Assembly (NCBI GenBank): GCA_026932235.1
Contig: JAIXKR010000118.1
Span: forward strand, 1 to 64,000
DNA from: Burkholderiales bacterium
GTDB lineage: Bacteria > Pseudomonadota > Gammaproteobacteria > Burkholderiales > Burkholderiaceae_C
Direction: 5' to 3'
Length of the DNA: 64,000 nt
Positions 12,164 to 15,004 of the stretch are shown here, piece by piece. The notes beneath the pieces were generated by a model, which was not told the DNA's origin, did no database searches, and saw only the letters and a program-made list of their open reading frames with translations. The translations under genes and the position numbers were made by a program. Within the stretch, counting starts at the first letter, position 1. Each line of letters opens with the position of its first letter.

Positions 12164-12685
12164 ATGGACAACCCGACCCGCACTCCCGACGACATGTTCA
12201 GTGCCCGCCGCCGGCTGCTGCGGGGTTCGTTTTCGGCGCCGGCGGTGCTGACGCTTGCCAGCGGCAGCGCGCTGGCAGCCCAGAGCGCCACCTGTCTGGC
12301 CAAGGCGACGGCGAATTCATCGACGGCGCCGGTCACGACGACTGCGGGAGCGGATACCTTCATGCGCGTCCAGCTCATGGCGCGCCCGCCTGCGCCTTCT
12401 GGAGTCAATCCCAGGTACCTGGTCACCAAGGCCAGTTTCGGCTTGATTCCGGTCAGCACGTCGTTCTGGCCCGCGTCAACGGTGTGGTGGCGATTCGACA
12501 TCAGCACGAACACCTTGATGAGTGGCGGACAAAGATTCAGCGCCGTCCCTGGCGATGCGACTCTCGTCAACTACTGGGTCGCGCTGAGGCTTGATGCCAA
12601 CGGTCAGATCATTGGTCTGGGCGCTTCTGGCAGCGGCTCCGTCGTCGGCCAGAGTTGCTGGAACTCGATCGGGACTTCGCCCTGA
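12164..12685 (+). CDS. Small exported protein with Tat-like signal, first gene of HPr-rel-A cassette
   Basis: A 173-residue protein of no recognised enzyme family. The N-terminus SARRRLLRGSFSAPAVLTLA followed by SGSALAAQSA looks like a signal peptide with a twin-arginine-like start (RRRLL) and an ALA-A cleavage site near residue 38. The mature part is Ser/Thr/Gly-rich with two Cys (in SATCLAK and near the end in GQSCWNSIG). The ATG follows GAAGAGG by 6 bp and lies just downstream of a sigma-54-type promoter. The PqqD-like gene starts 2 bp after the stop. Position as first gene of the cassette makes it the natural candidate substrate or product of the downstream kinase/nucleotidyltransferase system. 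That role is inference. Confidence 0.7.
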   Translation: MDNPTRTPDDMFSARRRLLRGSFSAPAVLTLASGSALAAQSATCLAKATANSSTAPVTTTAGADTFMRVQLMARPPAPSGVNPRYLVTKASFGLIPVSTSFWPASTVWWRFDISTNTLMSGGQRFSAVPGDATLVNYWVALRLDANGQIIGLGASGSGSVVGQSCWNSIGTSP

Positions 12686-12687
12686 AC

Positions 12688-12963
12688 ATGAACGCCGCGA
12701 TGCGCACGCCTTCGGGCGTACGCATGATCGAACTGGGCGAGCTGTGGGGCGCGTTCAGCCCCTTGTCGGGCCAGACCGTGCTGCTCAACACGGAAGCGGT
12801 GGCCATTCTCGAAGTCCTGCGCGAGCAACCGGGCGATCTGGCGCGGGTGTGCCAGACTTTGGCCATGGACACCGACCTTGACGCCCGCGAACTGATGCAG
12901 CGCTGCGCGCCCGCCTGGCAACAGCTTCTGGACGCCGGTCTGCTGGAAGCTGCTGCCGCGTGA
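12688..12963 (+). CDS. HPr-rel-A system PqqD-like peptide chaperone
   Basis: A 91-residue PqqD-like protein. MRTPSGVRMIELGELWGAFSP is followed by TVLLNTEAVAILEVLREQPGD, the PqqD pattern in which a short beta unit is followed by the N-x-x-(A/G)-x-x-(I/L)-(L/W) helix. PqqD-like domains act as peptide-recognition elements in modified-peptide (RiPP) pathways. The ATG at 12688, 2 bp after the previous stop, fits better than the upstream TTG at 12655, which would overlap the preceding gene. The stop overlaps the kinase GTG start as GTGA. This arrangement with an HprK-related kinase A and a nucleotidyltransferase matches the known HPr-rel-A cassette. Confidence 0.82.
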   Translation: MNAAMRTPSGVRMIELGELWGAFSPLSGQTVLLNTEAVAILEVLREQPGDLARVCQTLAMDTDLDARELMQRCAPAWQQLLDAGLLEAAAA

Positions 12964-13934
12964 GCGCGCAAGCGGCCGGGCTGCGTCTGGGCCAGACCGA
13001 TCCTGGAACGCTCGGCAAGGTTCTGCGCGAAGGCCGGCTGTGGCTGGACTTCGGCGCGACCAGCACGTGCCTGACCAGCGATTCATCCGCACTCGCGGCG
13101 CAGCTCCAGCGCGTCTACGCGCAGTTTCCGCTGCTGCCGAAGCAGGCGTGGGCCGATCACCACGTGCGCGTGCTGCGCGCGCGCGGCCTGCGGCGCTGGC
13201 TGCGGCCGCAGGTCGAGTTCGAATGCGACCTGAAGCGCCCCTTCGAGCCCTTCCCGGCCGACACCGCCCTGCCGCTCTTCGAGTGGGGCAGCAACTGGCT
13301 GATCGGCAAGCGCCTGGCGCATCTGCTGCTGCTGCACGCCGGCGTGCTCGAGCGCGACGGCCTGGCGCTGGTGCTGCCGGCCGTCCCCGGATCGGGCAAG
13401 AGCACGCTCACGGCGGCCTTGTCGCTGCGCGGCTGGCGGCTGCTGTCGGACGAGTTCGGCGCCTTCTGCCCCGTGCGGCGGTGCTTCATCGCGATGCTCA
13501 AGCCGGTGGCGCTGAAGAACGAGTCGATCGCGCTCATTCGCGGCTTCGCGCCCGAGGCCCCGCTCGGCCCGCTGTTCCCGAAGACGCGCAAGGGCACGGT
13601 GGCGCATCTGGGCGCCGACCGCGACGCCGTCGACCGCCGCCACCAGTGGGTCCGGCCCGGCGCCGTGGTGATGCCGCGCTGGGCCGCCGATGCGTCCTTG
13701 AGCCTGACGCGTCAGCCCGCCCACCTCGTGTTCGGCTCGCTCGCCTTCAACGCCTTCAACTACCAGGACAACGGTGAACAGGGCTTCGACGCCGCCTCGC
13801 ACCTGGCCACGGTCTGCGGCGGCTGGTTGCTCGGCTACAGCCGCCTCGACGACGCCATCGCCGCGCTGGAAGATCTGTGGCCGCAGGTGCGCGAGGCGCA
13901 CGCGCGCGCTGCCGCCCCGGAGCCGGCGCGATGA
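12960..13934 (+). CDS. HprK-related kinase A
   Basis: A 324-residue protein with a GTG start. The P-loop is PAVPGSGKSTL (140-150) and is preceded by LLLLHAGVLERDGLALVL, which mirrors the His-containing strand before the P-loop in HPr kinase/phosphorylase. LLSDEFGAF (161-169) follows in the position of the second HprK motif. The N-terminal HprK domain is absent, and the first 100 residues are specific to this subfamily. HprK phosphorylates a serine on HPr; the target of HprK-rel-A proteins is unknown. It is overlapped on both sides (GTGA upstream, ATGA downstream), so the cassette is translated as one unit. Confidence 0.85.
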   Translation: MSAQAAGLRLGQTDPGTLGKVLREGRLWLDFGATSTCLTSDSSALAAQLQRVYAQFPLLPKQAWADHHVRVLRARGLRRWLRPQVEFECDLKRPFEPFPADTALPLFEWGSNWLIGKRLAHLLLLHAGVLERDGLALVLPAVPGSGKSTLTAALSLRGWRLLSDEFGAFCPVRRCFIAMLKPVALKNESIALIRGFAPEAPLGPLFPKTRKGTVAHLGADRDAVDRRHQWVRPGAVVMPRWAADASLSLTRQPAHLVFGSLAFNAFNYQDNGEQGFDAASHLATVCGGWLLGYSRLDDAIAALEDLWPQVREAHARAAAPEPAR

Positions 13935-15004
13935 ATCGACCCTGGCTGCAGGCCCTCGGCCGCCCGGAGCGGTGCACCGGATGGTCGCTCGACCAGTGGC
14001 AGGAGGCCACGCGCCAGTTGCGCCGCCTGCGCCTGCTCGCACGCCTGGCCGAAGCGGTCGAGGCGGCCGGACTCGGCCCGGCGATCCCCGAGCCCGTGGC
14101 CAAGCTGCTTCTCGCCGAGCGCCAGACCTCGCGCTACCGCCGACGCGTCGTCGCCTGGGCGGCCACGCGCATCGCGCGCACGCTGCAGGCTGTGGGTGCG
14201 CCACTCGTGCTGCTCAAGGGCTCGGCCTATCTGGCCCAGGAACTGCCGATCGCCCCAGGTCGCCTGCCCTCGGACCTCGACATCCTGGTGCCCAGGGACG
14301 CGCTGGAACGCGCGCAGCGGATGCTCGTCGCCGATGGCTGGCAGGAGCCCGAGCTCGACGCGCACGACCGCCGCTACTACCACGAGTGGAGCCATGAGGT
14401 GCCGCCGATGCAGCACCCCATGCATCCGATCGAGCTCGACCTGCACCACAACATCCTGCCGCCGCTCGGTCCGGTGGCGATCGACATGGCGCTGCTGCTG
14501 CGCGACGCGCGCCCCAGCGCCTGGCCCGGCTGGTCGGTGCTGGCGCCGGTGGACCAGGTGCTGCACAGCGCCGCGCACCTGTTCTTCGACTCCGAGCCGC
14601 TGGAGCGCGTGCGCGACCTCGTCGACCTCGACGGCCTGCTGCGCCACCATGGCGCGCGCGACGCGGGCTTTGGCGCCGCCCTCGAGCAGCGCGCGCAGGC
14701 GCTGGGGCTGATGGAGCCGCTGCTGCTGGCCTGCCACTTCTGCAGCGCCTGGCTGGAGACACCGCTTGGCCCCACGCTCACGCAGCGCCTGCAGCGCGTG
14801 GGCTGGCGCGAGCGCGGCCTGCGCGCGCTCTTTGCCGCCGTGTTGACGCCCGCGGCGCTGGACCGCCCGCGCCCGCTCCGCCAGCGCCTTGCCGCGGCGA
14901 TCGTCCTCTGGCGCTACCATCTGCGCCGCATGCCCTTGCGGCTGCTGGTCCCGCACCTCTGGCACAAGTTGCGCAAGCCGCGCGCAGACGCGACTCCGGG
15001 CTGA
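13931..15004 (+). CDS. Nucleotidyltransferase family protein of the HPr-rel-A cassette
   Basis: A 357-residue protein. [12 protein letters not shown] (93-104) followed by [17 protein letters not shown] (113-129) forms the GS...DxD active site of the uncharacterised nucleotidyltransferase family related to NTP_transf_5. LDLHHNIL, reading ELDLHHN, supplies the third acidic residue. The rest is helical with Arg/Leu-rich C-terminal sequence. The ATG overlaps the kinase stop as ATGA. In this cassette it could transfer a nucleotide or nucleotidyl group to the exported protein or to an activated intermediate. Substrate is unknown. Family assignment is good, pathway role inferred from gene order. Confidence 0.82.

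Follow-up and report, generated by a model that had tools for sequence, protein, structure and literature searches.

What does a kinase resembling HPr kinase act on when its gene stands between those for a PqqD-like protein and a nucleotidyltransferase-fold enzyme? The question is posed by a four-gene cassette at positions 12,164 to 15,004 of contig JAIXKR010000118.1 (assembly GCA_026932235.1, a Burkholderiales bacterium), whose first 64,000 nucleotides, the whole stretch of DNA analysed, are referred to here as the window. Direct reading of the sequence confirms the order small protein, PqqD-like protein, kinase and nucleotidyltransferase, all on the plus strand, and the tight coupling given in a preliminary description of this DNA: a 2-bp gap separates the small-protein stop codon from the PqqD-like start, the PqqD-like and kinase genes share a 4-bp GTGA overlap (12960-12963), and the kinase and nucleotidyltransferase genes share an ATGA overlap (13931-13934). 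From sequence comparisons we consider it fairly probable that the cassette is dedicated to modifying a single small exported protein after translation, a pathway in which the PqqD-like protein would bind the signal region and the two enzymes would act in turn on a single serine. The features concerned are the following, RRE denoting the recognition element of ribosomally synthesised and post-translationally modified peptides (RiPPs) and Tat the twin-arginine translocation pathway.

12164..12685, plus strand: small twin-arginine-signal protein of class II, 173 residues, ATG start, the probable substrate
12203..12280, plus strand: Tat-like signal region of that protein, residues about 14-39 (ARRRLLRGSFSAPAVLTLASGSALAA), with R15 and R16; the end of the signal is inferred
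12653..12670, plus strand: C-terminal motif S-C-W-N-S-I of that protein, residues 164-169, fitting the class II pattern, with Ser168 as the predicted phosphoacceptor
12688..12963, plus strand: PqqD_rel_X, an RRE-like protein, 91 residues, ATG start (TIGR04353)
12960..13934, plus strand: HprK_rel_A, an HPr-kinase-like kinase, 324 residues, GTG start (TIGR04352)
13931..15004, plus strand: NTP_transf_5 nucleotidyltransferase-fold enzyme, 357 residues, ATG start (PF14907)

A small signal-bearing protein is the constant partner of the cassette

Loci (L numbers; genomes and contigs carry G and C numbers) were sampled as 53 from the family (52 plus the window), 60 from the class and phylum, 20 further loci and a later named set of 80. 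The small protein, its start codons set by rule and by eye, is found at all 53 family cassettes, upstream of the PqqD-like gene in 51 and just downstream of the nucleotidyltransferase gene in two (L050 and L052), as well as at 57 of the 60 class and phylum loci and 19 of the 20 further ones. In the named set it is present at 74 of 80 loci; this set overlaps with those sampled before, and four of the 74 tails had already been seen there in identical form. No small protein was seen at L189, at L162 (cut near the contig start), at L274, L306 and L322 of the named set, or at L314, L323 and L328, which lie near a contig end. This constancy strengthens the initial proposal of a small exported protein as the substrate, and we consider that protein the likeliest one.

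Profile searches of the first 113 loci recovered the PqqD-like protein in 111, the kinase in 110 and the nucleotidyltransferase in 107. The PqqD-like gene lies directly 5' of the kinase gene in 107 of the 108 loci having both, and the nucleotidyltransferase gene follows the kinase gene on the same strand in 99/107. The cassette is kept while its flanks vary greatly among loci, and the neighbourhood that the preliminary description had proposed to look for in relatives does recur in many Pseudomonadota, in both its set of genes and their order. At L185, L186 and L191 the small protein and the PqqD-like protein stand together with no adjoining kinase, and the genomes encode a kinase elsewhere. 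Within the fetched stretches of the 20 further loci, some of which reach a contig end, the kinase is present in 17 and the nucleotidyltransferase in 11; the kinase was not seen in those of L241 and L243.

At the level of genomes, matches above the respective cut-offs were obtained for HprK_rel_A in 49 of the 200 sampled from the family and 41 of the 369 from the class, and for PqqD_rel_X in 47 of the 299 from the phylum. When the best 15 candidates per genome were scored with a class I small-protein profile, 46 of the 200 family genomes, all of them kinase-positive, gave matches above 50 bits, and the remaining three kinase-positive genomes carry class II proteins. The profile was built from the same family loci, and the informative half of this result is thus the negative one: no kinase-negative genome (0/151, again among the best 15 candidates) reaches 50 bits, and four give 21-24 bits.

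The window cassette itself is flanked by a short-chain dehydrogenase gene and an adenosine deaminase gene. Its genome (G000) is a 3.86-Mb assembly, 81% complete and 5.8% contaminated, in which a second contig (C128; loci L001 and L076) carries a near copy of the whole cassette at 75-84% amino acid identity, with matching flanks (the same short-chain dehydrogenase and part of the adenosine deaminase region). The C128 copy probably stems from another strain that was binned together with the first, and not from a duplication. The ratios of nonsynonymous to synonymous substitution rates between the copies (0.24, 0.21, 0.19 and 0.25 for the four genes), together with a gene order that recurs widely, argue that the cassette is not a chance arrangement.

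The small proteins have two unrelated mature forms. Class I proteins are about 200 residues long and carry the motifs [ST]PG[YF]W and A-x-LNA; class II, the form in the window, spans 74-234 residues and is defined by absence of the class I domain and presence of the C-terminal motif discussed below. The window protein matches no NCBIfam model, its best Pfam match being at E 0.44, and the 60 of 107 small proteins scanned against both databases yield nothing stronger than weak matches, the best at E 0.0018 and every one of them limited to one or two members. A structure model of a class I protein (predicted local distance difference test, pLDDT, 77) contains a confident helical domain, most residues between 71 and 200 having a pLDDT of more than 85. 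Neither it nor the class II model (pLDDT 70) matches a PDB entry at E <=0.001, and assignment of function by fold was set aside. At L046 and L061, two class I small proteins stand in tandem ahead of one PqqD/kinase/nucleotidyltransferase set.

Each class has a conserved serine

In class I, the serine of C-x(2,3)-[ST]-[GA]-x-x-S is present in 77 of 77 proteins whose median pairwise identity is 24%, and it is one of just two invariant columns, the other being one arginine of the twin pair. It was first noted in 47 family proteins, and the 30 class I proteins of other families all proved to keep it. In class II, the pattern [CAS]-x-x-S-[FILAV] occurs within the last 20 residues of 30/30 proteins, as compared to at most nine in 500 shuffles, and its strict form beginning with cysteine occurs in 27/30, as compared to at most one, the pattern having been drawn from the same 30 proteins that it scores. 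The cysteine form is also present at all 19 further class II loci (five judged by eye), which share families with the 30 that gave the motif. In the named set, with a wrong-frame candidate (L322) left out of the count, the loose pattern as set beforehand fits 28 of 29 proteins against a shuffle maximum of 10; a generalised pattern fits 29/29 and was widened after the named set had been seen. Two class II proteins, those of L155 and L179, consist of a signal and only about 12-20 residues, ending SCNASLI and SCLDSFNGL respectively. As these proteins contain hardly anything besides the signal and the motif, we suggest that the C-terminal motif is the working part.

The PqqD-like protein and the two enzymes

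The PqqD-like protein scores 38.5 bits with TIGR04353 (cut-off 35), and the best PDB matches of a profile of 22 homologues are the lasso B1 proteins TfuB1 (6jx3, E 1.3e-5) and TbiB1 (5v1u, E 0.0019), both of which bind leader peptides. Single-sequence PDB searches with this protein, the kinase and the nucleotidyltransferase gave nothing useful. The kinase scores 334.3 bits with TIGR04352 (cut-off 200) and matches no Pfam family; among 25 of the 26 families matched by 22 homologues, the C-terminal domain of HprK (PF07475) is matched by 11 of the 22, and within this scope the HprK N-terminal domain was recognised in neither the window kinase nor the homologues. The 22-member profile aligns with the catalytic core of HprK 1jb1 (E 7.8e-4) with coinciding catalytic residues, and His119, G-x-G-K-[ST]-T and Asp157-Glu158 (numbered along the aligned stretch) are present in 110/110 kinases. 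These results agree with the original characterisation of the gene as HprK-like and devoid of the HprK N-terminal domain. The predicted nucleotidyltransferase site is likewise borne out: the enzyme matches NTP_transf_5 (PF14907) at 157.3 bits, and Lys-Gly, Arg, D-x-D and a third Asp are conserved in 106/106 homologues.

The enzymes track the class of the small protein. On a FastTree phylogeny of 181 kinases the substrate class changes once, as compared to 42-54 times in 100 shuffles, and free mixing of kinase and substrate class is therefore ruled out; the corresponding figures are four changes for the nucleotidyltransferase (shuffle mean 22) and eight for the PqqD-like protein (24). The trees comprise the loci of known small-protein class, with the 20 later loci left out.

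The signal region as a candidate leader

The arginine pair R15 R16 is invariant in 30/30 class II proteins, and in class I the second arginine is present in 77/77 and the first in 75/77. Signal models separate cassette signals from a background of 30 other Tat-like signals that came from nine genomes and were picked by one Tat model: a model trained on family class I signals ranks class II signals above this background with an area under the curve (AUC) of 0.84 and class I signals from outside the family with an AUC of 0.97, and training on class II signals yields an AUC of 0.78 with either of the class I sets. A core P-x-x-x-[TSA]-[LMVIA], chosen after looking, is present in 66 of 107 cassette signals and 1 of 30 background signals. 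These comparisons are suggestive of shared features that might serve as a recognition element for the PqqD-like protein.

Association with the XrtA/exosortase system

Among family genomes, 45 of the 49 with the kinase and 5 of the 151 without it have an exosortase match (TIGR02602) above 230 bits (Fisher p 3e-34), that line having been set after a gap (232 to 175 bits) was seen; at the curated cut-off the counts are 46/49 and 35/151 (81/200 in all). XrtA itself (TIGR03109, curated cut-off) is present in 34 of 41 kinase-positive and 38 of 328 kinase-negative class genomes (p 3e-21), in samples that share some genomes with the family set and whose members are not independent by descent. Ten kinase-positive genomes have no such match above these lines. 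Five of them have the XrtA-system histidine kinase PrsK above cut-off, and the five that are also without PrsK are G000, G040, G067, G186 and G207, three of which are less than 85% complete. Two genomes of the same genus as the window genome have both a high-scoring exosortase and PrsK.

The association extends to gene neighbourhoods. Members of the clusters PrsR, PrsT, PrsK or EpsB_2 lie in the fetched stretch of 10/53 family loci, and the glycosyltransferases stp1/stp2 of the XrtA system or its amidotransferase lie near 6 of 10 scanned class, phylum and later loci (L173, L181, L188, L192, L231 and L247); they were not seen near L163, L166, L171 and L176. The window locus differs in that it sits between the short-chain dehydrogenase and adenosine deaminase genes. 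The C-terminus of the window small protein, read directly, has neither a PEP-CTERM tail nor a hydrophobic tail, and we rejected the reading of this protein as a PEP-CTERM substrate for that reason.

The XrtA amidotransferases (TIGR03108) at L188:6120-8015, L192:6423-8342 and L231:5198-7108 score 238-282 bits with the lasso cyclase model NF033535 (cut-off 525), such that an RRE, a kinase, a nucleotidyltransferase and an AsnB-like enzyme are found in one place at these three loci.

Relation to known systems

The cassette belongs to the HPr-rel-A system of NCBIfam, and is neither a lasso peptide cluster nor an HPr kinase system. The comparison, made with model names and one-line descriptions, is one in which the kinase and the adjoining PqqD-like protein both exceed curated cut-offs; the PF14907 nucleotidyltransferase adjoining the kinase, which we take to be a defining feature, is present in the window. 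The small proteins are the point of difference, since those scanned fall in no NCBIfam or Pfam family. Full-text searches of open-licence PMC papers found none naming HPr-rel-A, HprK-rel-A or HprK-related kinase, none joining PqqD, a Tat signal, a kinase and a precursor, none joining twin-arginine signals with RREs and leader peptides, and none tying exosortase to HPr kinase or to PqqD. This accords with the earlier view that the grouping is known from family databases and its product and chemistry are not.

A close parallel is with phosphorylated and phosphoglycosylated lasso peptides such as paeninodin and pseudomycoidin, which share a PqqD-like RRE, an HPr-kinase-like kinase and a nucleotidyltransferase with the cassette. 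An HPr-kinase homologue is reported to phosphorylate a C-terminal serine of lasso precursors, and PsmN, termed a nucleotidyltransferase, is linked to the addition of one or two hexoses to the lasso phosphoserine (PMC9266682, PMC8498205, PMC7533575); the lasso kinases require a His-Lys-Asp-Asp set (PMC9266682). The cassette substrate, unlike a lasso precursor, is a larger Tat-like exported protein, and a lasso cluster was rejected because the cassette lacks a B2 protease and an AsnB-like cyclase: neither was found in the cassette, among the scanned neighbours (DedA, short-chain dehydrogenase and adenosine deaminase) or in the gene set conserved across loci. A second parallel is offered by the bufferins, copper-related RiPPs modified by multinuclear non-heme iron-dependent oxidases (MNIOs), in which a signal peptide takes the place of the leader and an RRE-type partner is present (PMC12452194). 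Their signal is of the Sec type where that of the cassette is Tat-like, and an MNIO oxidase stands where the cassette has a kinase and nucleotidyltransferase. Against the C-terminal family of NGO1945 (PF22106), the PqqD-like protein of the cassette gives a weak match at E 0.0019 and 19 bits, below the cut-off of 27.

A proposed modification pathway and its alternatives

In the pathway that we favour, the PqqD-like protein, acting as an RRE, would bind the twin-arginine signal region of the precursor, and the signal would thus double as the leader. The HprK-like kinase would phosphorylate one serine, Ser168 in SCWNS of the window protein and, in class I, the one that closes C-x(2,3)-[ST]-[GA]-x-x-S, immediately after the signal. 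The NTP_transf_5 enzyme would then add to the phosphoserine a further group, a hexose or a nucleotide being most likely, in the manner reported for PsmN in pseudomycoidin. The modified protein would be exported, probably by Tat, and may work at the cell surface alongside the exopolysaccharide system of XrtA/PEP-CTERM. In this view the cassette would function by analogy with the tailoring part of the pathways to phosphorylated lasso peptides. A more elaborate form, which is speculative and rather unlikely, is that a lasso tailoring module has been turned to protein phosphoglycosylation with the Tat signal as leader, and that a protein bearing Ser-phosphate-hexose is the covalent anchor or primer of XrtA-dependent exopolysaccharide.

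If the favoured pathway is correct, RiPP logic would extend from peptides to Tat-exported proteins. The small signal-bearing protein as constant partner, the two substrate classes, the conserved serines and the XrtA link are new here, and a named gene system that is undescribed in the literature searched gains a substrate family and one candidate modified residue per class. It also gains a proposed recognition rule, with an export signal as leader, and a cellular setting in XrtA exopolysaccharide, and these gains together make its function directly testable. A single window could not have revealed the two classes, the serines, the signal as a probable recognition element or the XrtA link.

Several observations weigh against this pathway. 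Conservation of the class I cysteine (76/77) almost equals that of the serine, and structure could thus explain part of the serine conservation; in the named set the aligned column is serine in 43 of 45 class I proteins, those of L296 and L308 having serines nearby that are out of register, and the strict cysteine form of class II is present in only 15/29 (shuffle maximum 2). Some loci are without a kinase or without a nucleotidyltransferase in the fetched stretch, and joint inheritance of linked cassette genes would also produce a kinase tree divided by substrate class. Curated Tat models match between none and two of 30 members per scan (E <=0.1), the window protein not among them, a looser signal pattern (xT[LMVIA]) hardly discriminates (73/107 as compared to 14/30), and the choice of background signals by a single model bears on the AUC values. 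The window genome, at its 81% completeness, gives best scores of 159 bits for XrtA (cut-off 208) and 94 bits for PrsK (cut-off 300).

The alternatives differ in the target or in the chemistry. That the kinase is an HPr kinase paralogue regulating carbon metabolism through serine phosphorylation of HPr is suggested by its relationship to the HprK catalytic domain, with which it shares the histidine, the P-loop and the acidic pair; it differs from HprK in having no recognised N-terminal domain and in replacement of the second aspartate by glutamate. However, the window genome encodes a true HprK on C129 (TIGR00679, 330 bits) and an HPr on C19 (PF00381, 102 bits), and a TIGR00679 search of the genome (E <=0.001) returned the C129 gene alone and not the cassette kinase, for which reasons HPr is probably not the target and we regard this explanation as very improbable. 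The preliminary description had arrived at the same conclusion from the lack of a phosphotransferase system protein in the window; the conclusion stands, and that premise is a weak one, although the absence of any such gene from the cassette points the same way. It is also unlikely, although deserving some weight, that the enzymes act on another exopolysaccharide component (a sugar-phosphate, a lipid carrier or another protein) with the small protein as a mere partner or secreted product. The strong link to XrtA polysaccharide genes would fit this, and nucleotidyltransferase folds often serve in sugar activation, but a PqqD/RRE-like gene directly preceding the kinase gene in nearly every locus indicates a ribosomal substrate, kinase-negative family genomes yield no strong class I match, and the small protein stays paired with the PqqD-like protein at the three loci whose kinase is encoded elsewhere.

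With the small exported protein retained as the substrate, there is a substantial possibility, somewhat short of an even one, that the NTP_transf_5 enzyme nucleotidylates it, directly or on phosphoserine, and that no sugar is involved. Conservation of the carboxylates D-x-D ... D in all 106 homologues is consistent with this, and, according to a review, it could not be excluded that PsmN nucleotidylates and a host glycosyltransferase follows; against it, a kinase and nucleotidyltransferase of this kind are reported to yield a phosphohexosylated product. A true RiPP pathway, in which the core is excised as a short modified peptide serving as a signal molecule or antimicrobial, would suit the brevity of the L155 and L179 proteins and the presence of an HtrA-like protease family near 9 of 53 family cassettes, but the majority of the small proteins greatly exceed that length, a helical domain is modelled with confidence in class I, and the conserved cassette has no transporter or peptidase, and we judge this pathway improbable.

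Further observations

Two loci were not counted as cassettes: L190, whose kinase is divergent, and L248 (G639), whose kinase match is only 38 bits. At L248, a single open frame encodes both an HprK-like sequence and a PqqD-like domain, which seems to be a natural fusion not belonging to the cassette. The nucleotidyltransferase gene is on the opposite strand in L155, L157, L166, L168, L169 and L170, all six of class II. Weak partial class I-like stretches (27-38 bits) occur in three kinase-positive genomes, at G052:C63:536-1981, G168:C56:37346-38455 and G011:C8:276144-276542, within open frames of 1295-2208 residues and twice per frame in two of them, and a class I-like module is possibly used in large surface proteins. 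In six of the nine family loci with the trypsin/HtrA-like protease, its gene (e.g. L037:3564-4334) directly follows that of the nucleotidyltransferase, and it is possible either that this is a maturation protease or that the arrangement merely reflects local synteny.

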